Below are positions 11,487 to 59,366 of a stretch of DNA of 64,000 nt, piece after piece. The position numbers and the translations under genes were made by a program. The stretch spans positions 186,001 through 250,000 of the forward strand of contig JAGYIP010000009.1 in assembly GCA_018402635.1 (NCBI GenBank), read 5' to 3'. This stretch comes from Burkholderiaceae bacterium. Its GTDB lineage: Bacteria > Pseudomonadota > Gammaproteobacteria > Burkholderiales > Burkholderiaceae_A. The notes beneath the pieces are model-generated. The model saw only the letters and a list, made by a program, of their open reading frames with translations. It had not been told where the DNA came from and made no database searches. Position 1 is the stretch's first letter; each line of letters starts with the position of its first letter.

Positions 11487-11560
11487 ATGGAGATGTTCAA
11501 CGTCGGTCAGGCCTGATTTGGTTGGGCCTGATACGACCAAGTGTTTTTCTCGTTCAGCGC

Positions 11561-11609
11561 TCAACGGTCAACAGTCAACGGTCAACGGTCAGCGGTTAAC
11601 GGTTAACGG
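11561..11609. repeat. 7-bp tandem repeat, seven consecutive units (TCAACGG and variants)
   Basis: tcaacgg tcaacag tcaacgg tcaacgg tcagcgg ttaacgg ttaacgg read directly. Confidence 0.9.
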
Positions 11610-12399
11610 ACTCTTGAAAACCTGTTCCGAAGCCAATCGACTCTGAAATCTGAAAAGCTGTTTTTTTCAATGCCTCCACCCAGCCATCGTTGGCTCGATC
11701 CGCCGGGGCAGATATCGATAGCCCTGCCACGATTCGGCCCGCATCGTCGTGAATTGCCGCCGCAATGCACCGAACGCCCAGTTCCAACTCCTCGTTGTCG
11801 CGCGCAAAGCCGTGGTTTCGAACCTCCTGCAGTTCCGATTCAAGCCGCGACACCTCTGTGATGCTGTTTCGGGTCTGCCCTGACAACCCGGTACGCATGG
11901 CGTAAGACCGCACAGCCCGCATCTCCTCGTGGGCCAGGAAGAGTTTGCCAGTGGAGGTTAAATGAAGAGGGGCTCTGCCGCCAATGGCGCGCACCACCTG
12001 CATACCGGATCGCTCGCTTACGGCCCGTTCTACGTAGACAATCTCATCGCCCTGACGCACTGACAGGTTCACCGTTTCGCCGGTGAGTCGGTGCAGCTCT
12101 CGCATGGGCGTTGCAGCCGCATCGCGGATGTTAAGGCGGGTCTTCACAAGGTTGCCGAGCTCGAGCAGACGCATGCCAAGCTGGTAGAGACCCGGTTCAG
12201 TGCGGTCGACCATGCGGGCTAGGACAAGGTCGTTCAAGATGCGGTGGGCCGTTGATGGGTGCAGGCCGGTCTGGCTTGAGAGATCCTTGAGCGAAACGGG
12301 GTCCGACTGGCGTGCAAGGGCGTCGAGCAGGGCGTTCATGCGTTCAATAACCTGGATTGCAGGCCGGGCAGGCACGATTGGCTGAGCGGTTTGAGGCAT
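11596..12399 (-). CDS. IclR family transcriptional regulator
   Basis: N-terminal HTH (LKDLSSQTGLHPSTAHRILNDLV) and IclR effector domain. Confidence 0.92.
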   Translation of the reverse strand: MPQTAQPIVPARPAIQVIERMNALLDALARQSDPVSLKDLSSQTGLHPSTAHRILNDLVLARMVDRTEPGLYQLGMRLLELGNLVKTRLNIRDAAATPMRELHRLTGETVNLSVRQGDEIVYVERAVSERSGMQVVRAIGGRAPLHLTSTGKLFLAHEEMRAVRSYAMRTGLSGQTRNSITEVSRLESELQEVRNHGFARDNEELELGVRCIAAAIHDDAGRIVAGLSISAPADRANDGWVEALKKTAFQISESIGFGTGFQESVNR

Positions 12400-12477
12400 G
12401 CCGGTTATCTTAGTCGAAGTTAAGCTCGTTCACGCTCGGGTAATGGCACAATGAGATGAAATTAAGGATGTAAAACT

Positions 12478-13224
12478 ATGGTCGCTCTTGCGAACAACCC
12501 TCGTATTGCTCTCTTTGTTACATGCCTGGTCGATCTCATGCGTCCGGAAATTGGTTTCGCAACCATCAAGCTTCTGGAGCATGCAGGCTGTGAAGTAGTT
12601 GTTCCCCCCGATCAGACCTGTTGTGGCCAGCCAGCCTACAATTCGGGCGATCGTCGAAGTGCCCATCGGCTTGCCGAGCGAGTGCTTGAGCAGCTCGAAG
12701 GCTATGACTACGTGGTCATTCCCTCGGGCTCCTGCGCGGGCATGATCAAAGTTCATTACGCCGATCTCTTCTCGGACGACCCAGGTCTTAAGCACAGGCT
12801 CGTCGACCTCGGACCCCGCATTTACGAGCTCTCCGACTTTTTGGCCAATGTCATGCAGGTGGAAAACGTGCCGGGAAAGCTCTCAGCCGCTGTGACCTAC
12901 CATGACAGCTGCAATGGTCTGCGTGAGCTTGGTGTCTGCGCGCAGCCCCGGCAGCTGCTAAAACTCATTCCTGGTGTCGAAGTGCGTGAGATGAAAGATG
13001 CCCGCGCCTGCTGCGGCTTTGGTGGAACTTTTTCTCTGAAATACGGTGCGATCTCCTCGGCTATTGTCGATGAGAAAATTGGCAATATTCAGGCCACATC
13101 TGCCCAGGCTGTTGTGCTTGGCGACCTGGGCTGCATTTTAAATATCGAAGGCCGTCTGCGTCGCCTGGGTGACGACAAGACCCAGGTGCTTCATATTGCC
13201 CAAGTGCTCGCAGGGGAGGTCTAG
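12478..13224 (+). CDS. lutA: (Fe-S)-binding protein, lactate utilisation LutA/YkgE family
   Basis: Cys-rich CCG motifs: PPDQTCCGQPAYNSGD, YHDSCNGLRELG, ARACCGFGGTFSLKY. Confidence 0.9.
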   Translation: MVALANNPRIALFVTCLVDLMRPEIGFATIKLLEHAGCEVVVPPDQTCCGQPAYNSGDRRSAHRLAERVLEQLEGYDYVVIPSGSCAGMIKVHYADLFSDDPGLKHRLVDLGPRIYELSDFLANVMQVENVPGKLSAAVTYHDSCNGLRELGVCAQPRQLLKLIPGVEVREMKDARACCGFGGTFSLKYGAISSAIVDEKIGNIQATSAQAVVLGDLGCILNIEGRLRRLGDDKTQVLHIAQVLAGEV

Positions 13225-13227
13225 GCC

Positions 13228-14652
13228 ATGCAAGTTCAGTCCATGCATTTTCATTCGCGCTCGGAACTTAAGTTACAAGACGAACGGCTTCAGAAAAACC
13301 TTCGCCGCCTAGCCGACAAGTTTGTCTCAGCCCGTGCCCAGGCCATGACTGAAATCGACTTCGATGCCACCCGCGATGCGGCAGTCGAGCGTCGCGACAG
13401 AGCTATCCATAACCTTGACGTCTGGCTTGAGCTCTTTGAAAAGAAGGCAACAGAAAGAGGCGCCACTGTTTTATTTGCTGAATCTGCCGCTCAGGCCTCT
13501 GAAATTGTTGTTAGCCTAGCCAAGCGTCACGATGCCAAAACCGTCATTAAATCAAAGTCGATGGTCTCCGAAGAAATGGCGCTTAATGAGGCACTGCAAC
13601 GGGCAGGTGTCGAGCCAGTAGAAACCGACCTTGGCGAGTACATCCTTCAAATTAATGACAACGAGCCGCCCAGTCACATCATTGCGCCCGTTATTCATAA
13701 AGATAAGGATGAAATTGCAGATCTTTTCTCACGGGTCCATAACAAGCCCCGTCTTGACGACATACCCGAACTCGCACGCGAGGCACGTCAGCAGCTTAGG
13801 CCTAAGTTTTTAAGCGCTGACATGGGTGTTACTGGGGGCAATTTTGTTATTGCAGAAACAGGCTCCGTTGCCCTGGTAACGAACGAAGGCAACGAAGGCA
13901 TGTGCACCATCATGCCCAAGGTTCATGTGGTTGTAACCGGTATTGAAAAGGTATTGCCGACGCTTGAAGATTTCGCCACCATGGCTCGCCTGCTTACACG
14001 CTCGGCAACGGGGCAGTCCATTTCCAATTACGTGTCATTGCTAACCGGTGTTCGTGCAAAGGGCGAACCCGATGGCCCAGACCATCTGTATTTCGTACTT
14101 GTTGATGGCGGTCGTTCGGGTCTTCTGGGCAGCGAGTTTGAAGAGATGCTTCGATGCATTCGATGCGGCGCCTGCATGAACCACTGCCCGGTCTATCAGA
14201 AGATTGGCGGCCACGCTTATGGCTGGGTCTATCCCGGCCCGATGGGCGCTGTTCTAACGCCTTCGTATGCAGGCCTTGAGAACTCCCTTGATCTGCCTCA
14301 GGCGGCTACCTTGTGTGGTGAGTGCCATGTGGTCTGCCCAGTAAAAATTCCTCTACCCGACCTGTTGCGAAAGCTACGTGAGCGCCAATTCGACCGGCAT
14401 CTTAGGCCCTGGCGAGAGCGTTGGACGCTTTGGGCTTGGGGTTTTGTGGCCATGCGTCCTCATCTGTACAGGCTTATTTTTGGCCTTACCAATAGGGCCT
14501 TGAGAATCATGGCGCGCGGCCGGGGCTACATTGCCTTTCTTCCCCTGGGGTCTGGCTGGTCAAGGTTTCGCGACTTGCCTGTTCCGAAAGGCAAGAACTT
14601 CGCCGATCGTTACGCGCTCTGGAAATCGTCCAGACCAGAAACCAGGTCGTGA
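13228..14652 (+). CDS. lutB: LutB/YkgF (LldF) iron-sulfur cluster-binding protein
   Basis: CIRCGACMNHCPVYQKIGGHAYGWVYPGPMGAVLTP, CGECHVVCPVKIPLPDLL. Confidence 0.92.
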   Translation: MQVQSMHFHSRSELKLQDERLQKNLRRLADKFVSARAQAMTEIDFDATRDAAVERRDRAIHNLDVWLELFEKKATERGATVLFAESAAQASEIVVSLAKRHDAKTVIKSKSMVSEEMALNEALQRAGVEPVETDLGEYILQINDNEPPSHIIAPVIHKDKDEIADLFSRVHNKPRLDDIPELAREARQQLRPKFLSADMGVTGGNFVIAETGSVALVTNEGNEGMCTIMPKVHVVVTGIEKVLPTLEDFATMARLLTRSATGQSISNYVSLLTGVRAKGEPDGPDHLYFVLVDGGRSGLLGSEFEEMLRCIRCGACMNHCPVYQKIGGHAYGWVYPGPMGAVLTPSYAGLENSLDLPQAATLCGECHVVCPVKIPLPDLLRKLRERQFDRHLRPWRERWTLWAWGFVAMRPHLYRLIFGLTNRALRIMARGRGYIAFLPLGSGWSRFRDLPVPKGKNFADRYALWKSSRPETRS

Positions 14653-15689: not shown

Positions 15690-16442
15690 GGGCTTTCTTG
15701 AGGTTCCTGAAGGTCTTGAACACGGCGCCATTGTCCATAAACAAGCATTTCAGATGGCCTGAACCCTGCCTTGTAGGCCATTTTTTTGCTGCCTGAAATC
15801 CAGTAACCAAGGTAAAGATAGCTCGAGCCCGAGTCGCTGGCATTCTGAAATCTGCCACAAGATGCCATAGGTACCAAAGGAGCTCTGCGGCTTTAAGGGG
15901 TTGTAGAAGGTGTAAACCGCCGACAACCCGTCTGGGAGACGGTCTACGATGCTTACCATGACAAGCTCACCGTCGGGCTGTCGAAAGCTAATAAGCTCGG
16001 TTGAGACGCGGCTTTGAAGCAGAAACTGTGCGTATTGGTCTCGGCTGTCTTGATCCATTCCACCGCCAGCATGACGATGGGACTGGTAGGTTTGATAGAG
16101 CCGATAGTGTTCGTCGCGAAACTGCAGGGGCTCTCGTTGAATAAGAAGCTGTTCTTCGTGCCGTCGTAGTAAGCGTCTTTGTGTTCGGTTTGCCTCAAAC
16201 TCGCCCACAGGAATGCGCAAGGGAATGCACTCTCTACAGCCATCGCAATAGGGCCTGTAGGCAAAGGCACCGCTGCGACGAAAGCCCATCTGAACCAAGT
16301 CCCCGTAGAGCTCAGACGTAATGAGGTGATTCGGGGTTGCGACCTGAGAGCGCGCCTTGCGTGATGATAAATAGCTGCAGGCGTACGGTGCAGTTACGTA
16401 GAACTGCAGGGTTGCAACGGGAAGGTCTCGAAGGCTTGACAT
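15686..16442 (-). CDS. bpt: aspartate/glutamate leucyltransferase (Bpt; arginyltransferase-like), one-base frame break near 15828-15830
   Basis: [55 protein letters not shown]-terminus [32 protein letters not shown] found in a shifted frame (15686..15877); restored stop TGA overlaps pyrD ATG (ATGA). Confidence 0.88.
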
Positions 16443-43598: not shown

Positions 43599-43731
43599 TG
43601 TTAGTTTTTTGTAAACGTTTTCATCAAAATATTTTACTTTCATACAGGTATCATGTCGATCAGAATTGCAGCAGCGATAGAAATGAGTTTAGTTTGATTG
43701 TCTCGTGACACACAGAGGAAGAGGAGCTTTC

Positions 43732-45153
43732 ATGGCCGCAAAAACATACAGTGCTGGCGTAAAAGATTATCGCCAGACCTATTGGATGCCGGAGTACACA
43801 CCCCTTGATACCGACATTCTTGCCGTCTTTAAAATCACACCGCAGCCCGGCGTTGATCGCGAAGAGGCTGCAGCAGCAGTGGCTGCCGAATCATCAACAG
43901 GAACCTGGACAACCGTCTGGACAGACCTGCTAACCGATCTCGACTATTACAAAGGCAGGGCCTACCGCATTGAAGATGTGCCTGGCGACGATTCCTGCTA
44001 CTACGCCTTCGTAGCCTACCCCATCGATCTTTTCGAAGAGGGTTCGGTTGTTAACGTCTTTACATCGTTGGTCGGTAATGTTTTTGGCTTTAAGGCGGTT
44101 CGAGCCCTACGTCTTGAAGACGTTCGTTTCCCCTTGGCCTACATCAAAACCTGCGGTGGCCCGCCTAATGGCATTCAGGTTGAGCGCGATGTTATGAATA
44201 AATACGGCCGGCCTATGCTGGGCTGCACCATCAAGCCTAAGCTTGGTCTCTCGGCAAAGAACTATGGCCGGGCGGTTTACGAATGCCTTCGTGGCGGTCT
44301 CGATTTCACAAAGGATGACGAGAACATCAATAGCCAGCCCTTTATGCGCTGGAGGCAACGGTTTGACTTCGTTCAAGAGGCCACCCTTAAGGCTGAGGCC
44401 GAGACGGGCGAGCGCAAGGGCCACTACCTGAACGTTACTGCTCCCACGCCCGAAGAGATGTATCGCAGGGCAGAGTACGCCAAGGAAATTGGTGCGCCCA
44501 TCATCATGCACGACTACATCACAGGCGGCTTTTGTGCAAACACAGGCCTGGCCAACTGGTGTCGTGAAAATGGCATGCTGCTGCACATTCACCGTGCTAT
44601 GCATGCTGTGATCGATCGTAACCCTCACCACGGAATTCATTTCCGCGTGCTCACGAAAATCCTGCGGCTTTCGGGTGGAGATCACCTTCATACCGGAACG
44701 GTGGTCGGCAAGCTCGAGGGCGATCGCGCCTCAACACTTGGCTGGATCGACCTTCTTCGTGAGTCTTTCATTCCCGAGGACCGAGCCCGCGGGCTCTTCT
44801 TTGACCAAGACTGGGGTTCGATGCCAGGAGCCTTTGCTGTGGCCTCGGGCGGTATTCATGTCTGGCACATGCCTGCTCTTGTCACCATCTTTGGCGATGA
44901 CTCGGTGCTTCAGTTTGGTGGCGGAACGCTTGGCCACCCCTGGGGTAACGCAGCAGGGGCATGTGCGAACCGCGTTGCGCTTGAGGCTTGTGTTCAGGCC
45001 CGTAACGAGGGTCGGCAGCTTGAAAAAGAGGGCAAAGAAATTCTTACCGCTGCAGCTCAGCATTCGCCAGAACTCAAAATTGCTATGGAGACCTGGAAGG
45101 AAATTAAGTTTGAGTTTGACACCGTAGACAAGCTCGACATCTCTAACAAATAA
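43732..45153 (+). CDS. cbbL: ribulose-bisphosphate carboxylase large subunit, form IA (carboxysomal)
   Basis: [81 protein letters not shown]. Confidence 0.98.
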
Positions 45154-45170
45154 GCTGAAGGGAAACGAAC

Positions 45171-45497
45171 ATGACTGTTCAAGCCTATAAGTCGTCGCAG
45201 AAGTACGAGACCTTTTCTTACCTCCCCAATATGACGGCCGATCAGGTGAATCGGCAAATTGCCTACGCCATTGGCCAGGGATGGAACCCCGCTGTCGAGC
45301 ACACCGAGAAGGGAACCGCCTCAACCAGTAATTACTGGTACATGTGGAAATTGCCCCTTTTTGGTGAGCAGTCTGTTGAGGCGGTTCTTGCGGAGTTGAG
45401 CGCCTGCCACAAAGAGTTTCCCAATCATTTGGTGCGGTTTGTTGCCTATGACAACTACTCCCAGAGCCAAGGAACGTCGTTCGTCGTTTACCGATAA
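45171..45497 (+). CDS. cbbS: ribulose-bisphosphate carboxylase small subunit
   Basis: [46 protein letters not shown]. Confidence 0.97.
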
Positions 45498-45506
45498 GGT
45501 GGTCCT

Positions 45507-47075
45507 ATGTCACTTTCCGAATCGCAAACCTACACGGTGACCTTATCGGGTCGAGAGCTCGCACTGCGCCGCAGGCAGGCCATGTCGAGCCTGGGCAAAT
45601 CAGCTATTAAAGGCGCCTCCCAGACAAGTTCGACAGGCTCTGAACATCAGAGAAAGTCTGCCCAAAACGTCGATCGGGCCGGGGTTCAAGACTGGCCCTT
45701 TAGCCCAATGCCTGCGCGCGCAAGTCAGGACCATGAGGTCTGTGGGCCTGAGTGTGGGTGCGATTCAAAAAAGCCCGAGCCCGCTGCTACCCCGTTGGGT
45801 AACCTTGTGCGCGGCGACATCTCTTCTCGAACACTCGCTCGGATGCGCCGTGAGGCTGCTTCAAGGTCGGGTAAGGCCGGGCAACAAAGGGTGGCAAAGG
45901 CCGTTCAGGTGGCCCAGCATCTTCCAGCCTCCCAGCTCTTTTCTGCCTTGTCTTCTGGTCCCAGTGGCCGTCAGGTGGCCATGCAACGACGGCTGGAACA
46001 ATCGCTTTTAGGCAGAGCCAGTCACAGGCATGCGTCCAGCTCATCGGCACCTTCAAGCCAGTCCGGCTCCACCATGCCTGCAGCCAAGGTCGAGATCGGT
46101 CATACCCTCTCGGGGCAGCTTGTTACGGGGCAGTTGCCCGATAACGATCCGAAGGTAACAGGGAATTTTCCGGGGTTATGTCAGCGGGTGACCGGAACAG
46201 AATATTTAAGCGTTGAGCCGTTTAAGACCTTTTGTTCGCAAACACCCAATCCCAAGCCCAGAAAGGTCAGTGTGATGTCCATTCGCCAAGACCTTTCAGT
46301 AACGGGTGCCGATGCCAGTAGTGAAAGCAGGGTGACCGGTGATGCACGTAACTTTTCGGTCAGTGTTACAGGAACAGACCACATGTCCTTGGCAAAATCC
46401 AGTCCGCGTCAGTCGGCGGCACAAGCGCAAACCCATTCTGTGGCCTCGGTCAGGCCCACCCATGCAACCATTCCCGCATCCTTTGTAACAGGCGAGCGGC
46501 CCGGTGCGGGTGGAGAGGGAATTACAGGCGATGAGCGAGGTGCCTGCCAGCCCATCTCTGGAACGCCATACATTGGAGATGACAACCGTCCTAGTTATTG
46601 CGGTCCTAATCCATCGGCCAGCGTTGCAATGCCAAAAGGGCCTCGTGAGCAGGTAGACAAGAAGCTTATTACGGGGTCGTCGTTTCAGACCGAACGTATC
46701 ACCGGGGCACTCACTAAGGCCGATGGTGTCATTACTGGAACCCCTGAGTTTCGCCATGCCGACCCAGCGCCGCGCGCTGCGGCTGACACATCCGCTGTTC
46801 ATGCTGCACAGCGCGTAACGGGCGAGGGTAGCCAGTCGGGCACACAGGTCACCGGCGATGCCTGGCATTCTCAAAGCCGCGTTACAGGAACAGAAGGTGG
46901 CTCGGTGATGGGGCGCAATCCATCCATGCGTGGACAGTCTCGCGGGCAGGGAATGAATGCCAGTCAGTTCAAGGGCATCGAGCGACAGACAGCGCCTCAA
47001 AGCCCAATGACCGGGTCGGCAGGTAACACGGGCAGTGGGGCTGTTGTTACAGTCTCAGGCGGTGCTCGAGGCTAA
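45507..47075 (+). CDS. csoS2: carboxysome assembly protein CsoS2 (short form, 522 aa)
   Basis: N-repeats (GRELALRRRQAMSSLGKSA), VTG/ITG-rich M and C repeats, C-terminus MTGSAGNTGSGAVVTVSGGARG; position between cbbS and csoSCA. Confidence 0.95.
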   Translation: MSLSESQTYTVTLSGRELALRRRQAMSSLGKSAIKGASQTSSTGSEHQRKSAQNVDRAGVQDWPFSPMPARASQDHEVCGPECGCDSKKPEPAATPLGNLVRGDISSRTLARMRREAASRSGKAGQQRVAKAVQVAQHLPASQLFSALSSGPSGRQVAMQRRLEQSLLGRASHRHASSSSAPSSQSGSTMPAAKVEIGHTLSGQLVTGQLPDNDPKVTGNFPGLCQRVTGTEYLSVEPFKTFCSQTPNPKPRKVSVMSIRQDLSVTGADASSESRVTGDARNFSVSVTGTDHMSLAKSSPRQSAAQAQTHSVASVRPTHATIPASFVTGERPGAGGEGITGDERGACQPISGTPYIGDDNRPSYCGPNPSASVAMPKGPREQVDKKLITGSSFQTERITGALTKADGVITGTPEFRHADPAPRAAADTSAVHAAQRVTGEGSQSGTQVTGDAWHSQSRVTGTEGGSVMGRNPSMRGQSRGQGMNASQFKGIERQTAPQSPMTGSAGNTGSGAVVTVSGGARG

Positions 47076-47105
47076 AGCGCTACGGGGTCCCCCTTAGGTC
47101 TAACC

Positions 47106-48593
47106 ATGAGCCGCTCAATTAGCCATCATCCCGTCTTGCGTCGGCAGGCCGCTGTTGCTCAGAGGCGAGGCGAGCTTGCGAACCCCGCCTGTGAAATAGG
47201 GCCGGGACAGGACTGTCGACATCCATTGGTTGATGAGTCGCTTAACGCAGAGCTTCATCGGTACGAAACCATTATTAGCCAACGCTTTCTTCTTATTGAA
47301 GCTGCATTGAAGAAAATCTCAGCCATTCAGCACGATGATTCGTTTGTTCAGAAAGCCCAAGACATTTGTCAGGCCATGCTTGGCTATTGCCTGCCTGAAG
47401 ACAAACTTGCCAGTGCCTGGGTCAATGGTCTCGACATGCCAGACCTTCATGCTTATTGCGTTTTTCAAAGTCTGGTCTTGTCTGTTCAAAAGGCCAATGA
47501 GGATCGAGCGATATGGCTAAAAAACCTACCGCTTAGCTCCCCCGTGCTTCGTGACATGGGCTACCACACGGTTAACATCAGCCCCTGTGCAGATGGACGT
47601 CTCCAGGGTCTCTTGCCGTTTATCCTTCGTATCTCCCCCGCCCCTGAAATCTCGGTAAAGGCGTTTGCCGGCGCAAGGTTCGATATTGAAGACGATATTG
47701 CCGACTGGACCCAGGCCGAGCTGCAACGCTTGGCAAACGAGCCAGGATACGACGCATCACTTAATTATTTAAAGTGTGTTGTCTACCACTTTAGCTCCTC
47801 CTCCCCCTGTGTTGAAGGCTGTGCAGCCCATGGCAGCGACGATGGCATGGCGATCGACTGCGCAATTGAAGGGCTATCGGCCCTGCAGGCGGCCATACGG
47901 AATTTGTATGGCCTGGGTGCCGAGCCCGATGGCCTGGTGCTTGGTGTCGATACTGACACCGATGCCCTTCGCGTTCATCTACCCGATGGCTCAGGAACCG
48001 TGCGCGCTCATCAATTCTTAGACAGCGCCCAGCTTTTCGCAGAAACGCTGCCATTAGGTCGCGTCCAGGCCGAGCAAGTTCTTATCGACCGTGTTCGGGC
48101 TGCTGCCTCAAACCCAGATGCCAATACTGTGGCCTTGGCAATAGGACTCCTTCGTGCCAATTTCTCGCAGCTGCAGTATGTTATTGAGCATCACAACGGG
48201 CGGTATACCGACGTAGGCCACGATGAAAAATTTATTTGTGCAGGCGAGGCGGTTGCATCTCTGCACCTTCGTAATAAGTATTACTTTGCCCACCTTTCCA
48301 CAGTTGAAGAGGGGGCAGCCGACCTTGACGTTGGCATAAAGATTTTTACCTCGCTTAATCTGTCCCGAGGGCTCGCCATCCCAATTCTGGTGCATTTCTT
48401 TTTCGATGCCAGGGTTTCAGGCGCACGACAGCGAGCCGAACAGCGTTGCCATCGGGTTAAGCAGGCCATTCAGACACGTTATCAGGCTCTGCATGAGCGC
48501 CATCAAATTAGGTGCTTTCTTGCGGTGTCCGATATCGGAGGAACGGAAAACGTGACTCCCGTTCCATCAAGTTACTCGGTATCTGTTCACTGA
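47106..48593 (+). CDS. csoSCA: carboxysomal carbonic anhydrase CsoSCA (CsoS3)
   Basis: MGYHTVNISPCADGRLQGLLPFILRI (CxD), VVYHFSSSSPCVEGCAAHGSDD. Confidence 0.95.
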   Translation: MSRSISHHPVLRRQAAVAQRRGELANPACEIGPGQDCRHPLVDESLNAELHRYETIISQRFLLIEAALKKISAIQHDDSFVQKAQDICQAMLGYCLPEDKLASAWVNGLDMPDLHAYCVFQSLVLSVQKANEDRAIWLKNLPLSSPVLRDMGYHTVNISPCADGRLQGLLPFILRISPAPEISVKAFAGARFDIEDDIADWTQAELQRLANEPGYDASLNYLKCVVYHFSSSSPCVEGCAAHGSDDGMAIDCAIEGLSALQAAIRNLYGLGAEPDGLVLGVDTDTDALRVHLPDGSGTVRAHQFLDSAQLFAETLPLGRVQAEQVLIDRVRAAASNPDANTVALAIGLLRANFSQLQYVIEHHNGRYTDVGHDEKFICAGEAVASLHLRNKYYFAHLSTVEEGAADLDVGIKIFTSLNLSRGLAIPILVHFFFDARVSGARQRAEQRCHRVKQAIQTRYQALHERHQIRCFLAVSDIGGTENVTPVPSSYSVSVH

Positions 48594-48614
48594 CCGGCGG
48601 AGGCTTTTAGATTC

Positions 48615-48869
48615 ATGAAGATTATGCGGGTCGAAAAAACATTAGTGTCGACAAATCGAATTGACGCCTTTGGTCATCGACCTTTATTGGTTGTCCAGGA
48701 GCGGGTGGGTGGCAGCTACAGCGTTGCTGTTGATTCTGTGGGCTGTGTGCCTGGCGATTGGGTTATTTGTGTGGGCTCTTCGGCGGCCCGCGATGCTGCC
48801 GGTGCGAAAGACTTCCCCTCCGATCTCACAATCGTCGGGATTATCGACCGTTGGGAGGCACAGGCTTAA
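48615..48869 (+). CDS. csoS4A: carboxysome pentameric vertex protein CsoS4A
   Basis: MKIMRVEKTLVSTNRIDAFGHRPLLVVQERVGGSYSVAVDSVGCVPGDWVICVGSSAAR (BMC-P). Confidence 0.94.
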   Translation: MKIMRVEKTLVSTNRIDAFGHRPLLVVQERVGGSYSVAVDSVGCVPGDWVICVGSSAARDAAGAKDFPSDLTIVGIIDRWEAQA

Positions 48870-48871
48870 GC

Positions 48872-49114
48872 ATGGAGATTTACAAGGTTAGCCAAGAGCT
48901 TGTCTGCACCAGGCGCACACCTGGGCTTGGGCTGCATTCTCTTCGTGTGCTTGAGGCGGCCGATGGCAGCCTGTCTGTTGCAACCGATCCAGTCGGTGCG
49001 CCAGTGGGGAAATGGGTCTTTACAACCATTGGGACGGCGGCTCGCTATGCCATGGCCGACCCAAGTGTAGTAACCGATCTCACAATTTGTGGGCTTATTG
49101 ATAACTGGGAGTAG
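48872..49114 (+). CDS. csoS4B: carboxysome pentameric vertex protein CsoS4B
   Basis: MEIYKVSQELVCTRRTPGLGLHSLRVLEAADGSLSVATDPVGAPVGKWVFTTIGTAARYAM; ORF start corrected from track 48758. Confidence 0.93.
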   Translation: MEIYKVSQELVCTRRTPGLGLHSLRVLEAADGSLSVATDPVGAPVGKWVFTTIGTAARYAMADPSVVTDLTICGLIDNWE

Positions 49115-49146
49115 TTTTTTTTCTTTTTTAAAAAAGGAGTAGTGAA

Positions 49147-49443
49147 ATGGCAAGTGTGACTGGTATTGCTTTAGGAATGATCGAAACTCGTGGTCTTGTT
49201 CCCGCCATTGAGGCTGCTGATGCCATGACCAAGGCTGCTGAAGTTCGCCTGGTCGGCCGTCAGTTCGTTGGTGGTGGTTATGTCACGGTCTTGGTTCGTG
49301 GCGAGACAGGTGCCGTGAATGCCGCAGTTCGTGCGGGTGCAGACGCCTGTGAACGTGTAGGCGATGGACTTGTTGCTGCGCATATTATTGCTCGTGTGCA
49401 TCAGGAAGTTGAAGGCATTCTTCCTTCAGCCCCAAGCGCCTAA
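49147..49443 (+). CDS. csoS1: carboxysome shell hexamer CsoS1 (BMC-H), copy 1
   Basis: [79 protein letters not shown]. Confidence 0.97.
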
Positions 49444-49456
49444 TTGTTGAAAAAAT

Positions 49457-49476
49457 CGCGCCTGAGGTTTGGCGCG
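49457..49476. promoter_or_regulatory. intergenic hairpin between csoS1 copies
   Basis: cgcgcc-tgaggttt-ggcgcg perfect 6-bp stem, upstream of the aaaggagg RBS. Confidence 0.55.
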
Positions 49477-49493
49477 CATAAAGGAGGTCGTAA

Positions 49494-49832
49494 ATGGCTA
49501 CAGTATCCGGAGTTGCACTTGGCATGATAGAAACACGCGGTCTTGTTCCTGCTATTGAAGCAGCTGACGCAATGACGAAGTCTGCCGAGGTGCGCCTGGT
49601 CGGCCGCGAGTTCGTGGGTGGTGGTTATGTCACGGTGATGGTGCGTGGCGAGACCGGCGCTGTAAATGCAGCGGTTCGCGCCGGAGCTGATGCCTGCGAG
49701 CGTGTTGGCGATGGCCTTGTTGCTGCCCATATTATTGCGCGTGTGCACCAGGAGGTTGAAGGTATTCTTCCGTCAAAGCCGACTGCCGTGGGTGGTGGAA
49801 GAGATGGTGAACTCTCAACCATTCAAAGCTAA
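49494..49832 (+). CDS. csoS1: carboxysome shell hexamer CsoS1 (BMC-H), copy 2 with C-terminal extension
   Basis: Near-identical BMC domain to copy 1; tail [18 protein letters not shown]. Confidence 0.97.
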
Positions 49833-49877
49833 GCAATCATGGGTCTGGCCTAAGGGCATCCCGTTCGGGGAGTAGGA

Positions 49878-50132
49878 ATGGCGGATACAGAGATTGAAGG
49901 CTGGGATTACAGGGCAAAGCCAAGCTCCTTGTCGAGACGCTTTGAGTTCCCCAGTTATGCTCAGACCCGAGACTTTCTTGACCGTCTCGATCAGTTAAGT
50001 CAGGAGACTGGGCTTTATCCTCACAGCACCAACTTTGGCACCAGCTATGTCAACCTAACGATCGACCTCGATGCCGATTCAGAGGCCTTTCGGGCCTTTG
50101 CAGTGAAGGTCAGCCAGCTTTACCGTGCATGA
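49878..50132 (+). CDS. acRAF (pterin-4a-carbinolamine dehydratase-like RuBisCO assembly factor)
   Basis: SLSRRFEFPSYAQTRDFLDRLDQLSQETGLYPHSTNFGTSYVNLTI; position in cso operon. Confidence 0.88.
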   Translation: MADTEIEGWDYRAKPSSLSRRFEFPSYAQTRDFLDRLDQLSQETGLYPHSTNFGTSYVNLTIDLDADSEAFRAFAVKVSQLYRA

Positions 50133-50764
50133 AGATTGTTGCGGTAGTCAATCAAAAGGGAGGCGCTGGAAAGACAACCTTGGCGATGAATCTGGCTGGT
50201 GGGTTGAACCGGCGAGGTCAGACTTTGGTGTTAGACCTTGATCCCCAGGGTTCTGCTGTGCAGTGGGCAAGCCAGGGAAGCACTCGATTTCCTGCTGTGG
50301 TGAAGAAGCCCATGGCTCGATTTGATAATGCCTCCATTCGAAAGACCTACAGCGAATTCGACTATGTCGTTATGGACTGCCCACCTTCGCTAGAAAGTGG
50401 TGCAACCCTATCGGCGTTGAGGGCTTGTCATCTGGCGATTATTCCGGTGCTGCCCTCGCCTGTTGACCTCTGGGCAAGTCTTCGGCTTCCGTCAGAGCTT
50501 GAGCTTGCAAGGCAGACCAACCCAGGTCTTCGCAGCCTTATGGTTATTAATCAGTTAGAGCCAGCAAGTGCTTTGTCCTCGGCCATGCATGGGGCGCTTG
50601 AAGAGTTTGGGCTTCCAGCGGCAAAGACAGCCATTCGACGTCGTGCTGTTTATCGCACCGCAGCCCTCGATGGCGTAACCGTCTACGAGCTTGGTCGTCG
50701 CGCCGAGGCCGCAGTTAACGAATTTGAATCTCTACTCAAGGAGGTGACGCATGAGTTCGCTTAA
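50129..50764 (+). CDS. mcdA: ParA-family ATPase McdA (carboxysome positioning)
   Basis: MKIVAVVNQKGGAGKTTLAMNLAGGL deviant Walker A; DLDPQGSAVQWA; operon position. Confidence 0.93.
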   Translation: MKIVAVVNQKGGAGKTTLAMNLAGGLNRRGQTLVLDLDPQGSAVQWASQGSTRFPAVVKKPMARFDNASIRKTYSEFDYVVMDCPPSLESGATLSALRACHLAIIPVLPSPVDLWASLRLPSELELARQTNPGLRSLMVINQLEPASALSSAMHGALEEFGLPAAKTAIRRRAVYRTAALDGVTVYELGRRAEAAVNEFESLLKEVTHEFA

Positions 50765-50989
50765 ATCAAAGCTTACAGCCAGCGTAAAGCAGGCAAAGGC
50801 ATCGTCCGGCGTGGCGACGCCACGAACCGAGGCTGCCTCTGCAAAGGTACGAAACGAGGCCGCTTCTGAAAAGCCTCAAAAAGGCCTGAGCCGCCCAGGA
50901 AAAAGTCCTCCTCCTTGAATTCTTCTGTCAATGCGAGTGTGGTTGCGAGTCATCACGAGCTCTTCCCGTCGCGGGTCTGGCCCGATTAA
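50751..50989 (+). CDS. mcdB: McdB-like protein, 79 aa if a -1 shift (or one-A sequencing deletion) occurs at A5 50900-50904; only 55 aa (50751..50918) without it
   Basis: Overlaps mcdA end; frame 0 MSSLKSKLTASVKQAKASSG...SRPGKSPPP*; -1 frame continues KKSSSLNSSVNASVVASHHELFPSRVWPD* with C-terminal Trp. Confidence 0.72.
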
Positions 50990-50999
50990 GGCCTGAGGC

Positions 51000-51920
51000 A
51001 TGAAGACCTATAGGCCTCGTCAGGCAGGGTTTGTTTCCCCCGAGGCGCCGAGCCCTACAAGGTATTCCTCTGGCCATACAGAGGTAAGGCCGGCGAACGA
51101 TCGCTCTGCCGCAAGCCATGCATCGGAGCTTGCTCAATACCTTGTTCCAACCGAGCCCTACTACAGGCCGGTCTCCGACGAGGTGACCTTGTTTGAGGCG
51201 GCCTACTCGGTTCGCATGCCCATGATGCTCAAGGGCCCCACGGGTTGTGGAAAGACACGGTTTGTTGAGTACATGGCCTGGCGCTTAGGCAAGCCCCTTA
51301 TTACGGTGGCCTGCAACGAAGACATGACCGCCTCCGATCTTGTAGGCCGCTACCTGCTCGATACTGACGGAACACGCTGGCAGGATGGTCCCTTGGCACT
51401 TGCCGCGCGATACGGGGGCATCTGTTACCTCGACGAGGTGGTCGAGGCGCGGCAGGACACCACCGTTGTTATCCACCCTTTAACCGATGCGCGGCGAATT
51501 CTTCCGCTTGAGCGCAAGGGCGAGGTGATTGAAGCCCATCCCGATTTTCAGGTTGTTATTTCCTACAACCCGGGTTATCAGTCCTTAATGAAAGACCTAA
51601 AGCAGTCGACCAAGCAACGGTTTGGCGCACTCGACTTTTCGTACCCTGAACACGAGGTTGAGGCCGAAATTGTGGCGCATGAGTCGGGTGTCTCAACCCA
51701 GGATGCTGCGAACCTTGTTCATATTGCTGAGCGGGCTCGGAACCTGAAGGGCCATGGTCTTGACGAAGGCATATCAACACGCATGCTGATCTATGCGGGC
51801 TCTCTAATGGCCGCTGGGGTGCCAGCGCTTTCGGCCTGTCGCGTTGCCTTGGTTAGGCCCATTACCGATGACCCTGATATGCGGGATGCACTTGATGCCG
51901 CCGTAAGCACCTATTTCTAG
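51000..51920 (+). CDS. cbbQ: CbbQ AAA+ (MoxR-type) RuBisCO activase subunit
   Basis: MLKGPTGCGKTRFVEYMAWRL, DGPLALAARYGGICYLDEVVEAR, VVISYNPGYQSLMKDLKQSTKQRF. Confidence 0.95.
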   Translation: MKTYRPRQAGFVSPEAPSPTRYSSGHTEVRPANDRSAASHASELAQYLVPTEPYYRPVSDEVTLFEAAYSVRMPMMLKGPTGCGKTRFVEYMAWRLGKPLITVACNEDMTASDLVGRYLLDTDGTRWQDGPLALAARYGGICYLDEVVEARQDTTVVIHPLTDARRILPLERKGEVIEAHPDFQVVISYNPGYQSLMKDLKQSTKQRFGALDFSYPEHEVEAEIVAHESGVSTQDAANLVHIAERARNLKGHGLDEGISTRMLIYAGSLMAAGVPALSACRVALVRPITDDPDMRDALDAAVSTYF

Positions 51921-51925
51921 TCCCT

Positions 51926-54271
51926 ATGGCTCAAGCCTTATCCGATTTTCTTAGCCCGGACGACGACTGCTCTGAATCGTTACGGCTTGCGCTTGAAGAA
52001 CAATGGTCAAGCCTTGCACGTGTCTTTAGCTCGCGTGGCATTGATAACTACCTAAAGGGCTGCACGGCGCTCGATCAGCTTGGGCGTTCCCAGGAACTGC
52101 CCCTTGCCTTTGCGGCTTGTATGCCCGAGGTCGCACGTGCCATCGGTGAGGACGTCTTACCCGACCTTGTCAATTTTCTTTTGGGCATGGCATCAAAGAC
52201 CTCGGGTCAGGTCTTAGCAGCCATCGTTAATGCAACGCCAATTGTTGCCCGTCGACTTGGCGATGCCGAGCTGTTTCGACAGTTTCTGCAGGTTTTGGCC
52301 AACATGCTTGCCCAGGCGCCCAGGGGTGTGCGACCTATGCTTGAGCAGTTGGACACCCTGCTTTCGCAGCTTACCCTTGGAGGCCTTCGGCGTTGGGCCT
52401 TATGGGGTGCACAGGCCTATAAAAGCGATCTAGAAGGGCAGGCTCTTTACTTTTCTCTGCAAAGCGAAGATGCCCGGGCCATGTTGCAGGCCGAGCGAAA
52501 GGGAACCCTTTTTGTCGATGTTCAAAGGCGCCTGTTAATTTATCTAAGGGCCATCTGGGGGCGCGATTTTTTCTTGCGACCAACCTCTGGGGACTACGAG
52601 CGTCGTGAGGGTCTCAAACCATATATTGATCGGTTTGTTATTTACATTCCCGATGCCTTTGATGACTGGTCTGATGCAAGCCGGCAAAGGTCTGTTTCTG
52701 GGCTTGATGTCTATCGCGCGGTTGTGAACCATTGCGCCGCGCATCTTCAGTTTGGGCGCGAGCCTCTTACGGACGAGGGGCTGACCCCGCTGCAGCGTCA
52801 TCTTGTTGAGTGCATTGAGGATGCCCGCGTTGAATACCTAGCAGGCCAGGCCTTTCCCAACATGCTCGATTCCTGGGCAGTCTTTCACACCATGCCCAGT
52901 GGTGAAGCATCGCCGTTGCGACTAGCCGATCTTCTAAGGCGCCTGGCCCTGCGTCTAACGAACCCTAAGGCCCACGATAGCCATGAATGGGTAGAGTACG
53001 CCGCCCAGTGTTTCTTTGGTCATCCCGACCTAACACAAGGCTTAGCAAGCGTCTCTATTGCCCGCGCTATTGAGGCAAAGCTAAGCCAGTTTCAGCTTCC
53101 TGCTTTTGACAGTCGTCTCGACAGCCTGACTCTTTTTTACCGCGACGACAACCGTATCATCTGGCAGCCTGATAGGCATGACGAGCAGGATGCACTTGCC
53201 TTGACCTGGCAGCAAAAGCAGGTGCGAAAAAAGGTAAGCATTATGGAAATGGTGAACGAGGTGAATAACGAGTTTGCCGGTGATGATGCGCAGGAAATCT
53301 GGGTCCTTCCCACCGAGTTCTTTCTTGATCAAGAGGGGGTTTCTATTAACTCGCTTGAGGGTCGTGAGCCTGTCTCAAGCCCGTTTTATTACAACGAATG
53401 GGATTATCAAATTCAGCTCGATCGTCCGGCCTGGGTCACCCTGTACGAGAGGGCTGCACCTCGCGGAGATGCGGCAGTTATCGATGCCTTGCTTGCCGAG
53501 CACAAACCGGTCGTCTCGCGGCTTAAGTACCTTATTGAGTCGATGATTCCCCAGGGTCTCAAGCGAATACGCCGCCAGGAAGAGGGCGATGAAATTGACC
53601 TTAATGCGGCAGTCAGCAGCTTTATTGACCTGCGAATGGGGTATCAGCCCGACCCTCGCATCATGACGCGCTACAAGCGGTCTGAGCGCGATGTCTGTGT
53701 TCTGGTTCTGCTCGATCTTTCGGAATCCTCAAACGACACCGTTCGGGGGCAAGACTTCACAGTTATTGAGCTTACCCGGGCCGCCACCGTTCTTATGGCA
53801 GACGCCCTCAGTCGGGTAGGTGATGCCTTTGCCATACACGGGTTTTGCTCAAATGGGCGCGATGATGTCCATTACTATCGAATGAAGAACTTCGATGAGC
53901 CTTATGAGAAAGAGGTGAAGGCAAGGCTTGCAGGGCTCTCGGGCTCTTATTCAACACGAATGGGTGCAGCCATTCGGCATGCATCAAGCCTGCTCGCCCA
54001 GCGATCCGAGCGGAAAAAGTTAATTTTTGTTGTCACTGATGGCGAGCCTGCCGATAACGACGTTCGCGATCCGCAGTACCTAAGGGCCGATACCAAGAAG
54101 GCGGTGGAGCAGGCCGGGCGTTTGGGTGTTAGCTGTTATGCGCTCTCGCTCGATCCCTACGCCGATCAATACGTTTCAAGTATTTTCGGTGCCGGCCGTT
54201 TCACGGTTCTCGACCATGTCGAGCGCCTGCCCGAAAAGCTCCCTATGCTCTACCTTGGTTTAACACACTAG
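51926..54271 (+). CDS. cbbO: CbbO VWA-domain RuBisCO activase subunit
   Basis: 781 aa; C-terminal VWA MIDAS-type [16 protein letters not shown]...[20 protein letters not shown]. Confidence 0.95.
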
Positions 54272-54278
54272 GTTCGTT

Positions 54279-54920
54279 ATGAAAATTAGCCTTCGAACCT
54301 TTGTTCTCATCGACTCGCTGCAGCCTCAGCTTGCTTCCTACCTAGGAACCTCCTCTCAGGGCTTTCTTCCTGTTCCCGGCGATGCCTGCCTCTGGATTGA
54401 GGTGGCACCTGGAATGGCGGTGCATCGACTCTCCGACATTGCCTTAAAGCGAACCAATGTTCATATGGGTGAGCAGGTGGTGGAGCGCTCGTTTGGGTCG
54501 ATGGAAATTCATTACCGCAACCAAAGCGAGGTGCAGGAGGCTGGCCGCGTTATTCTTGAGCAGCTTGCAAGCGCACCAGAGGACCGTATGGGCTGCTCGA
54601 TTGAATGGGCTGAGGTTATTTGCGCAGTGACGCCCGATCATGCAACCCTTATCAACCGCCAGATGCGTCGTGGCTCGATGCTCTTACCAGGTAAGAGCAT
54701 GTTCATTATGGAAACAGAACCCGCGGGCTATATTGTCTACGCAGCCAATGAGGCAGAAAAGGCCGCCAATATAAGCCTTGTCGACCTCAAGCCTTTTGGT
54801 AGCTTTGGGCGCCTAACCATGATGGGAACAGAGGCCGAGGCGGCCGCCGCAGCAGTCGCTGCAAAGGCTGCAATTGAGGCCTTAAATCGTCAGGCCCGCC
54901 CAATCGGGTTTAAGGGATAA
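54279..54920 (+). CDS. csoS1D: tandem-BMC shell protein CsoS1D
   Basis: [53 protein letters not shown] ... [61 protein letters not shown]. Confidence 0.9.
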
Positions 54921-54922
54921 CG

Positions 54923-55750
54923 ATGGATATCAATTCGCCTACCAAGCGCCTTTTGTTTAACACCGTTCGGGTCGACACCGAGCTAGAAGATGGCAGTCGC
55001 GGCTCGGGCACTGCCTTTATTGTGAGTCATCGTCATGGAAATAGGGCCACGGCCTTTGTGGTCACGAACCGCCACCTTGTTGAAGGCGTGCGTCGAGGGG
55101 GCCTGGTTTTTACTGTGGGCCAGAAAGGTCAGCCTCTTATTGGCCAGAGGTTTCAGCTCGATATCGATGAGTTCCCTCAGGCCTGGTTCCTGCATCCCGA
55201 CCCTTCCATCGACCTTGCCGTCATTCCGCTTGCACCACTTGAGCAGGCTGCAAATGAGCGAGGGGTGGACATCTACTACCAGCTTATTGATACCAGTCTC
55301 GTTCCCGAGGCAACCGATGTGCTTGCCTTTGATGCACTTGAAGAGGTTCTTTTTGTTGGCTATCCAAGCGGCGTCTGGGACCAGGTGAACCTTATGCCCA
55401 TTCTTCGTCGTGGAACGACGGCAACCCCACCACAAATCAATTTTGAAGGCCGACCAGAGTTTCTTATTGATGCTGCTGTCTATCCGGGGTCAAGCGGTAG
55501 CCCCGTCTTTTTCTGTGCCTCCGATGGGCTGGCAAGCCGTATAACAAGTGATACGAAGTTCTTTTTTGCGGGCGTCGTTGCGGCCGTTTTCTTCCGTCAA
55601 GAAGAACAGCAACTTGTGCCTGCCCCTGTGCCTGCAAACAATGGCCATGCATCGGTGATGGGCTCCGAGATGATCGACCTAGGACTTGTTATAAAGTCAA
55701 CGCAGGTTGTTCATTTAATCAACGCCTACTTAAGCACCTGGAAGGTCTAG
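54923..55750 (+). CDS. trypsin-like serine peptidase
   Basis: SGTAFIVSHRH...VVTNRHLV (His), SIDLAVIPL (Asp), AAVYPGSSGSPVF (Ser): apparently intact S1-type triad. Confidence 0.85.
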   Translation: MDINSPTKRLLFNTVRVDTELEDGSRGSGTAFIVSHRHGNRATAFVVTNRHLVEGVRRGGLVFTVGQKGQPLIGQRFQLDIDEFPQAWFLHPDPSIDLAVIPLAPLEQAANERGVDIYYQLIDTSLVPEATDVLAFDALEEVLFVGYPSGVWDQVNLMPILRRGTTATPPQINFEGRPEFLIDAAVYPGSSGSPVFFCASDGLASRITSDTKFFFAGVVAAVFFRQEEQQLVPAPVPANNGHASVMGSEMIDLGLVIKSTQVVHLINAYLSTWKV

Positions 55751-55759
55751 CTCGAGTCT

Positions 55760-56056
55760 ATGAATACACGGTATGCAGGTTTTTTTAACGATTCACACGG
55801 CATAACCCAGCTTGGTCGAATTGTGCTTGATGCATGGGCCTTTGGAATTCTTCCGCGCGAGGAAGATTGCAAGCAATGGGACCTTGGGCGTATGCAGAAC
55901 CTGATGCAGCAGGTGCAAGAGTTCTGGGATGCTCATGGCGGTCTGCCTAGCCTCTTGCCCGCTGAGCTTAGTAAAGAACATCAGGCAACTTACAGCTGGG
56001 CGATGGATCGTGCCCGAACATTAGGATGGTCCTCCGCCTTAGGCGAGGACGACTAA
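55760..56056 (+). CDS. hypothetical protein (98 aa)
   Basis: MNTRYAGFFNDSHGITQLGRIVLDAWAFGILPREEDCKQW..., compact operon spacing. Confidence 0.75.
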   Translation: MNTRYAGFFNDSHGITQLGRIVLDAWAFGILPREEDCKQWDLGRMQNLMQQVQEFWDAHGGLPSLLPAELSKEHQATYSWAMDRARTLGWSSALGEDD

Positions 56057-56080: not shown

Positions 56081-57025
56081 ATGGTTTTTGACCCTATCGT
56101 TTTATTTTTTCTACTTGGCGTAATTGCTGGAATTGTTAAGTCCGATCTGAAAATGCCCTCGGCCCTTTACGAGGCCTTATCGATATTTCTTCTACTTGCC
56201 ATCGGCCTTAAGGGAGGCGTTGAGCTCTCAAAGTACAACATTCTCGAGCTACTCCCCAGCACTTTTGTTGTGATTCTTATTGGCGTCCTTATTCCTTTAA
56301 TTGCCTTTCCTATTCTTAAGTTCGTTGGCAAATTGAATCATTTCGATTCCGCCTCAATCGCGGCACACTATGGTTCGGTAAGCGTGGTCACCTACTCGGT
56401 CGCACTGGCTGCTCTTGCTGAAAGGGGTATGACCCACGAGGGTTATATTGTTGTCTACCTTGTTTTGCTTGAGATGCCGGCCATTATTGTTGGTGTTGCT
56501 CTGGCGCGTATGGCTCCCGACGCTACCAAAAAGGCAGCAGGCTGGGGTAAGTTAATGCACGAGGTTTTCTCAGGCAAAAGCATTCTTTTGCTAACTGGGG
56601 GTCTTGTGATTGGTTGGATTGCCGGTGAGAAAGGGTTTGCCCCTATTGAACCGATGTTCGGTGGGCTTTTTAAGGGCGCACTCGCTTTGTTCTTGCTTGA
56701 GATGGGGCTCGTCGCTGCCTCACGGGTGGCGGCATTTCGCTCCTACGGCATGTTCTTGGTGGTCTTTGCCATGGTTATGCCGATCATTTCTGCGGCAATA
56801 GGCATCCTTACCGGCTTCATGCTGTCGCTTTCTCCGGGAGGAACTGCGCTGCTTGCCACCCTTTATGCCAGCGCCTCCTACATTGCAGCGCCTGCGGCCA
56901 TGCGAATTGCGGTTCCGAAAGCCAACCCATCGCTATCGATCGGCGCATCTTTAGGGGTAACCTTCCCATTCAATCTTTTTGTTGGGATACCCTTATACTT
57001 CGGAGCAGTTGAGCGATTCTTCTAG
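56081..57025 (+). CDS. sbtA: SbtA-family sodium-dependent bicarbonate transporter
   Basis: LFFLLGVIAGIVKSDLKMPSALYEALSIFLLLAIGLKGGVELSK ... YASASYIAAPAAMRIAVPKANPSLSIGASLGVTFPFNLFVGIPLY. Confidence 0.95.
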   Translation: MVFDPIVLFFLLGVIAGIVKSDLKMPSALYEALSIFLLLAIGLKGGVELSKYNILELLPSTFVVILIGVLIPLIAFPILKFVGKLNHFDSASIAAHYGSVSVVTYSVALAALAERGMTHEGYIVVYLVLLEMPAIIVGVALARMAPDATKKAAGWGKLMHEVFSGKSILLLTGGLVIGWIAGEKGFAPIEPMFGGLFKGALALFLLEMGLVAASRVAAFRSYGMFLVVFAMVMPIISAAIGILTGFMLSLSPGGTALLATLYASASYIAAPAAMRIAVPKANPSLSIGASLGVTFPFNLFVGIPLYFGAVERFF

Positions 57026-57032
57026 GGATTCC

Positions 57033-57323
57033 ATGCAAGTCAAACCGTTTAAGCTCGTTACCGTCTTTTGCGAGGCTATTTTAGAGTCTCTGGTTATAAC
57101 CGAGCTCGATGAGTTGGGGATTGTGGGTTACACGGTAAGCGACTGCCGCGGTCGAGGAACCCATGGAGTGCGCAGCGGTTCCTGGAGGTTAAGCTCCAAC
57201 ATCCGAATAGAAATCATGTGCGATGAAGAAGTCGCCGAAAAGCTTGCCTTTGCGCTCAGTCAAAAATACGACAAAGACTATGGCCTGCTTATTGTTGCAA
57301 GCAATGTCGATGTTTTGAATTAA
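57033..57323 (+). CDS. sbtB: SbtB-like PII-family protein
   Basis: KLVTVFCEAILESLVITELDELGIVGYTVSDCRGRGTHGVRSGSWRLSSNIRIEIMCDEEVAEKLAFAL; directly downstream of sbtA. Confidence 0.88.
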   Translation: MQVKPFKLVTVFCEAILESLVITELDELGIVGYTVSDCRGRGTHGVRSGSWRLSSNIRIEIMCDEEVAEKLAFALSQKYDKDYGLLIVASNVDVLN

Positions 57324-58254: not shown

Positions 58255-59366
58255 TTATTCACGAAAGAGACTACGGGTGCCGAAAAGTGGGGATTCATCG
58301 TCTTCATGAGCCCCTTGAGGCGGGTCATTGTGATAGCGCTCAATAAGCTCTACCTCTTCGCGGGACCCAAAGACAAGACCAATTCGTTGGTGAAGAGAGC
58401 TTGGGTTCACTGTTAACACTGGCTCATAGCCGGTACTTGCTCGACCTCCGGCCTGCTCCATGATCATGCCAATTGGGTTGGCCTCGTACAAAAGGCGAAG
58501 GCGCCCCGGCTTCGTTAGATCTTTGGTGTCCTTGGGGTATAAGAAAACGCCACCCCGCATAAGAATACGGTGGGCTTCTGCAACCATTGAGGCAATCCAA
58601 CGCATATTGAAGTCTTTGCCACGGGGTCCTGTCTGGCCCGCCAGGCATTCATCGACATAGCGTTTAACGGGTGGCTCCCAGAACCGAGCGTTTGAGGCAT
58701 TAATAGCGAACTCTTTGGTTGATTCAGGCACCTTAATATTGGGGTGCGTGTGCATGAATTCCCCAAAGCTAGGGTCAAGAGTAAAACCGTGCACCCCCGC
58801 CCAACGGTAAGAATGAGCATGGTTGCTGGCCCGTAAAGTGCGTAGCCTGCGGCAACCTGCTCGGTACCCGGCTGCAGAAAATCGTCTGCGGTTAGGTCTC
58901 GTCCGTCGTGGGCACTCTCGGGTGCTCGCAGCACGCTAAAAATACTTCCGACCGACACATTGACATCGATATTCGATGAGCCGTCGAGTGGGTCAAAGAC
59001 AAGCAGGTAATGGCCTCGCGGCAGGCCTTCGGGAAGGTTGTAAGGCTCGTCCATCTCTTCAGAGGCCATGCCTGCAACGTGACCAGCCCATTCGTTCATC
59101 TTGATGAAGACCTCATTGCTTATGACATCAAGCTTTTTCTGAACCTCACCCTGTACGTTAAGGGTCTGACCGTCAGAGGAGTCACCGGCGAAGTTGCCGT
59201 GCAGCCCGGCAAGCTCACCAAAAGCAACGGATTTCGCGATGGCCTTGCAGGCCATGGCGATATCAAGAATAAGGGCATTGAATTCGCCACTGGCGTCTGG
59301 AAAGCGACGTCTTTCCTGAATGAGGAATTGCGTCAGCGTACGATTCATTATCGGGCTAAGTTCCAC
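58255..59366 (-). CDS. fbp: fructose-1,6-bisphosphatase class I, one-base frame break at C5 58794-58798
   Basis: [25 protein letters not shown] (ORF 58515..59366), continuing [25 protein letters not shown]...[24 protein letters not shown] (ORF 58255..58794). Confidence 0.93.

Follow-up and report, generated by a model that had tools for sequence, protein, structure and literature searches.

The window analysed here, a stretch of 64,000 nucleotides from a Burkholderiaceae bacterium (contig JAGYIP010000009.1), holds a complete alpha-carboxysome cluster that runs on the + strand from cbbL through an SbtB-like P-II gene. The core genes (cbbL, cbbS, csoS2, csoSCA, csoS4A, csoS4B, two csoS1 genes and acRAF) occupy positions 43705-50132 and are followed by genes for a ParA/McdA-type ATPase (50129-50764), the carboxysomal AAA+ Rubisco activase ATPase CbbQ (51000-51920), its VWA adaptor CbbO (51926-54271) and a CsoS1D-like tandem BMC shell protein (54279-54920). 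Between csoS1D and sbtA lie two further + strand ORFs. The first (54923-55750) starts after a gap of 2 bases from the csoS1D stop codon (54920) and encodes a trypsin/HtrA-like serine protease of 275 aa that is predicted to be cytosolic; the second, orf98 (55760-56056), begins 9 bases past the protease end and encodes a 98-aa protein. The genes for the SbtA bicarbonate transporter (56081-57025) and the SbtB-like P-II protein (56979-57323) complete the cluster, and no promoter-like sites were found on the + strand from csoS1D to sbtB. An earlier note on this DNA gave the coordinates, ORF order and catalytic-triad motifs of the protease and its 98-aa neighbour correctly. Both are genuine genes rather than chance ORFs, because both are under strong purifying selection, with dN/dS values against sister genomes of 0.024-0.029 for the protease and 0.03-0.09 for orf98.

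Some other features of the window merit a brief record. A 55-aa ORF rich in Lys, Ala and Ser (50751-50918, + strand) occupies the place expected for mcdB, overlapping the 3' end of parA, and has a strong ribosome-binding site (AAGGAGGTG). CsoS2 (45507-47075) is short at 522 aa, as it is in the sister genome G008 (537 aa), whereas most other genomes with csoS2 encode a protein of approximately 610-1000 aa. Downstream of the cluster, fructose-1,6-bisphosphatase (58255-59366, - strand) is divided over two overlapping frames of 283 aa (N-terminal) and 179 aa (C-terminal), which looks like a frameshift in either the gene or the assembly.

By profile, triad and fold the protease is a chymotrypsin-fold serine protease of the PA clan. 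It matches Pfam Trypsin_2 (PF13365) over residues 29-196 at 43.4 bits, above the cut-off of 27.6, and its catalytic residues are H51 (55073-55075), D97 (55211-55213) and S191 (55493-55495, within PGSSGSPVF). The set that had been described as apparently intact is so throughout the close clade: H51, D97 and S191, together with G189 and G192 of the GxSGxP serine loop, are invariant in all 54 members of the carboxysome clade. An AlphaFold2 model built on a 63-sequence alignment (pLDDT 87.1, pTM 0.88) predicts a double beta-barrel, with an architecture of a single chymotrypsin-type domain followed by a C-terminal helix, and Foldseek matched this model to DegP, DegQ, DegS and chymotrypsins at E values of about 1e-7 to 1e-5 (about 1e-7 for DegP/DegQ, about 1e-6 for chymotrypsins). 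A sequence search of the PDB gave no relatives (best E 0.17). The fold of the protease domain is thus held in common with the HtrA/Deg proteases, and an invariant D183 lies upstream of the GxSGxP loop, but structural alignments with DegP, DegQ and DegS reach only about 14-18% identity and the NCBIfam HhoA/HhoB/HtrA model scores 12 bits, far below its cut-off of 450. The present protein also differs from that group in having no PDZ domain (by Pfam search, and as a single domain in the 275-aa model), no signal peptide and no membrane anchor. Reading by eye showed no hydrophobic leader at the N-terminus MDINSPTKRLLFNTVRVDTELEDG, which agrees with the earlier reading that an export signal is lacking. 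Judged from the conservation of its catalytic residues, the protein is probably an active endopeptidase.

A scan of one genome per species across 85,462 species found 71 loci with close relatives of the protease (59-97% identity), and essentially every one of them lies inside a cso, cbbQO or sbtAB cluster. The hosts are beta-, gamma- and alphaproteobacteria, among them Thiobacillus, Thiomonas, Hydrogenophaga, Nitrosomonas, Thioalkalivibrio and Nitrobacter. The entire cluster is plasmid-borne in Nitrobacter hamburgensis X14, where the gene is annotated simply as 'serine protease'. Counted over 79 loci, the immediate upstream neighbour is most commonly csoS1D (36), then cbbO (12) or sbtB (5), and the downstream neighbour is orf98 at 45 and sbtA at 12. 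Among 23 protease-bearing genomes that were re-checked, mostly because the contig with the protease had no csoS2, csoS2 was located elsewhere in 19; the other four are draft assemblies. Within the window's order, five of 398 genomes have a protease orthologue, all five being among the 44 that bear csoS2, and a sample of the class added three further orthologues, again all in csoS2-bearing genomes. In a panel of 80 cso loci, every cbbQ-cbbO-csoS1D locus came from a protease-bearing genome, and cso loci without cbbQO never have the protease. The earlier note had asked whether the gene keeps company with carboxysome loci in unrelated lineages; it does, and its close relatives are not mostly found outside such loci. 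At the same time the protease is absent from most csoS2-bearing genomes and confined to one operon lineage, and its distribution therefore makes it a marker of one carboxysome-operon lineage rather than of carboxysomes generally. We are close to certain that it is a dedicated gene of that lineage. Even within the window's own genus (G000-G010) the occurrence is patchy, at four of 11 genomes, and a search of the 18 genomes of a second genus (g36) for a within-genus contrast found the protease in none. In one draft genome (L026), the matches to csoSCA are spread over three reading-frame pieces, and that gene may be broken.

The protease does belong to a wider family. The PADLOC model PDC-S45, a candidate single-gene phage-defence protease, matches it over residues 1-270 (289 bits, E 6.2e-87), and the two are alike in triad and domain layout, including the lack of a PDZ domain. 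Remote homologues of about 30-46% identity are found on plasmids, beside restriction genes and in variable chromosomal regions. Other PDC-S45 members have no carboxysome context, whereas the carboxysome clade is found in carboxysome or CCM operons only and not in a defence-island or mobile context. In the protease tree that clade is monophyletic on a long stem (99/99 support), consistent with a single origin, and we infer that a carboxysome operon acquired its protease in a single event from a mobile family.

The 98-aa protein has a different history. It has no family match in Pfam, NCBIfam or PADLOC, and its confident structure model (pLDDT 91), a predicted bundle of three helices, found no PDB match in a fold search. 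To this extent its description as an orphan of no recognised family holds, yet homologues are widespread and the orphan status is wrong: a profile search placed the family in 62 of 79 csoS2-bearing genomes, few of which have the protease. Homologues often lie directly behind cbbO, or between cbbS and cbbQ, in cbbLS-cbbQ-cbbO operons that are often carboxysome-free. Conversely, an adjacent copy is missing at more than one third of protease loci, and several protease-bearing genomes have orf98 elsewhere, for instance upstream of dabA-PII-cbbL. A dedicated pairing of the two proteins is thereby ruled out, since the orf98 family is independent and far more widespread. The idea that orf98 serves as adaptor or inhibitor of the protease is not supported for a family that is mostly protease-free and situated by cbbLS-cbbQ-cbbO or elsewhere. 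It is best read as a separate, more widespread accessory protein linked to Rubisco and CbbQO that shares the operon.

A few loci show further settings of orf98. Locus L040 has a second copy (15968-16276) immediately before a form II Rubisco gene that is accompanied by a separate cbbQ and cbbO, and there a SulP-family-like transporter gene (11170-13230) is inserted between orf98 and sbtA. In some gammaproteobacteria (L166, 9033-9500; L179, 9844 region) the family occurs alone, away from Rubisco genes and beside an apparent frataxin (CyaY) gene. Nitrosomonas europaea presumably has a cbbLSQON operon in which cbbN, a gene for a small protein, stands behind cbbO. CbbN resembles in its position the orf98 homologues behind cbbO in free cbbLSQO operons, and the likeness is one of position. 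An N. europaea transcriptome paper lists cbbOQSL only (PMC6967387).

A correlate of the protease that the earlier note overlooked lies in CbbQ. In protease-bearing loci the carboxysomal CbbQ has some 40-50 extra N-terminal residues; in the window these are approximately residues 1-44 (51000-51131, + strand) of the 306-aa protein, with the motif KTYRPRQ at the start and RPAND at residues 30-34. Given the internal start codons, the extension was read from the sequence together with its conserved motif. This start motif, R[TGVR][YLF]xP[RK] (RTYxPR; KTYRPR in the window), is followed by a linker with 29% alanine. Within the linker another motif recurs, R[PSQ]A[SAND]; a search with the pattern [RQ][PSQT][AV][SAND] located it in 35 of 49 linkers, where shuffled sequences would give 9, a comparison that is not an independent statistic because the CbbQ sequences are related. 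L035/L124 has a long extension in which the pattern did not find the start motif.

The extension is present in all full-length carboxysomal CbbQs of protease-bearing loci or genomes (50 sequences) and lacking from 42 other CbbQs, in a sample part of which came mostly from protease-bearing loci. The CbbQs of other cso loci, even where cbbQ-cbbO lies directly behind parA, start at or near the core, as do those of form II or free form I operons. A family of 118 genomes, in which CbbQ was searched for and doubtful loci were then read, provided an independent sample. The protease was found in 27 of these genomes and the extension in 23; the protease accompanies the extension in 22 of the 23, and 90 of the 91 protease-free genomes have no extension. 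The sole exception in this family is an 84%-complete draft (G904) with the extension and no detected protease, and the five protease genomes without a visible extension are explained by a contig cut (G832) or by a carboxysomal CbbQ that was not found. In the CbbQ tree the extended proteins form one clade (88/87 support, 89% of bootstraps).

No other protein of the operon behaves in this manner. Comparison of CbbS, CsoSCA, CsoS4A/B, CsoS1, acRAF, ParA, CbbO and CsoS1D revealed no lineage-specific N- or C-termini, and CbbQ represents the only consistent protein-end difference that sets protease-bearing cso loci apart from the others. The length of CsoS2 was considered as a further correlate and rejected as inconsistent (522 aa in the window, about 900 aa in others). 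A resemblance of the CbbQ tail RTYSPRQEAMAR to the Rubisco-binding repeats of CsoS2 (GRELALxRRQAMAxxGK) was also considered and is at most a tentative idea, since the two differ in arginine spacing. The CsoCbbQ of Halothiobacillus neapolitanus has the same AAA+ core and is likewise a carboxysome-locus CbbQ with a CbbO (PMC4633670). Its published cloning primer encodes MTQNADQYR, and to judge from this primer the protein starts at the core and has no RTYxPR extension (PMC4633670).

The protease and the CbbQ extension are thus linked by co-inheritance, which is linkage and not proof of interaction. Each trait has a single origin, so that a functional bond and hitch-hiking within one operon are inseparable on this evidence. 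What favours a functional link is that csoS1D, orf98 and sbtA are each missing near the protease in many of these loci, and the protease and the extension stay together. The protease became a fixed part of one operon lineage, in which the order is parA-cbbQ-cbbO-[csoS1D]-protease with orf98, sbtAB or both behind it, and we speculate that it acts in the CbbQO, or Rubisco-activase, branch of the carboxysome. The CbbQ tail, with its RTYxPR motif, presumably flexible Ala/Ser/Pro-rich linker and R[PSQ]A[SAND] motif, might be cleaved by the protease or might dock the protease onto the activase. The outcome could be control over the location of CbbQO, over the timing of its activity, or over the removal of damaged Rubisco or activase. 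To a function in the CbbQO branch we would give somewhat less than an even chance. That the tail is the substrate or docking site is possible with the balance of probability against it, and the full proposal, in which a dedicated protease matures, releases or docks on the CbbQ tail and so places Rubisco repair in this lineage under proteolytic control, is slightly more speculative than either of these parts.

The main rival is a different client in the protease's own operon. The protease might process or quality-control CsoS2, the shell or Rubisco, as the earlier note also imagined, or else CsoSCA, with the CbbQ extension being unrelated, for instance a targeting peptide. The genes for all of these share the operon with the protease, the single origin of protease and extension permits hitch-hiking, and the wider fold family includes DegP, DegQ and HtrA, which carry out general quality control. 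The same clients are, however, also present in most csoS2-bearing panel genomes that have no protease, and among the compared operon proteins only CbbQ has a terminus specific to protease-bearing loci; we regard this explanation as somewhat less likely than a role in the CbbQO branch. Alternatively, the protease might regulate inorganic-carbon uptake by cleaving SbtB or SbtA. The genes at the 12 loci with sbtA directly downstream, the sbtAB genes that flank protease-orf98 in many others, and some Thiobacillus relatives that keep protease-sbtA-sbtB upstream of cbbL and away from cbbQO would all suit such a role. Against it, the protease has no sbtA nearby in Nitrobacter, most Nitrosomonas and Thiomonas loci, and many genomes with sbtAB in their cso loci have no protease. 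The absence of an adjoining sbtA from so many protease loci disfavours a role specific to SbtA/SbtB, as the earlier note had proposed, and we consider it improbable. A role specific to CsoS1D was likewise set aside, since some loci, those of Thioalkalivibrio among them, have no csoS1D adjoining the protease gene.

Two further explanations concern the protein itself. Its fold might serve for binding and not for proteolysis, as a scaffold or pseudo-enzyme; the structure of MamO, a magnetosome relative of this fold that is known to lack protease activity, is among the fold matches. The invariance of the triad and of both glycines in every member of the clade makes this explanation decidedly improbable. 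Lastly, the strength of the PDC-S45 match and the plasmid, restriction-gene and variable-region settings of remote homologues would suit a stray defence or mobile-element protease that hitch-hikes in the operon with no role in carbon fixation. Such a passenger fits very poorly with a clade set apart on its long stem, which occupies the same place in the operon in three classes of proteobacteria, and with a gene that is single-copy in this genome and under strong purifying selection, and we think it the least probable. Our preference remains with the CbbQO branch.

The claim that alpha-carboxysomes have no established protease component stands, in that none is described in the open-access literature searched. 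That search, confined to open-access sources, likewise yielded no report of a CbbQ N-terminal extension or relevant report of cbbN, and a keyword search of reviews and locus surveys (PMC12918739, PMC4207490, PMC9164163 and PMC4633670) found mention of neither a carboxysome protease nor this CbbQ extension. A parallel is the GRM3 microcompartment locus, which has an ancillary peptidase with a suggested part in regulation (PMC4207490). Both cases have a peptidase gene in a microcompartment locus, but GRM3, as presented there, is a heterotrophic metabolosome and not a carboxysome, and the likeness is one of locus type. The novelty of the present case lies in a known protease fold that appears to have taken on a new and fixed role in carboxysomes.

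Efforts to engineer better CO2 fixation make alpha-carboxysomes one of their major targets, and the inventory of alpha-carboxysome components is generally regarded as close to complete. In one lineage this inventory would lack a component: a conserved protease that nitrifiers and sulfur oxidisers have and most other carboxysome loci do not. Its co-inheritance with a specific CbbQ tail supplies a substrate hypothesis. From the same locus orf98 emerges as a second, more widespread uncharacterised factor linked to Rubisco and CbbQO. The pattern of CbbQ tail and protease suggests that carboxysome function in this lineage may include a proteolytic step that has yet to be described.
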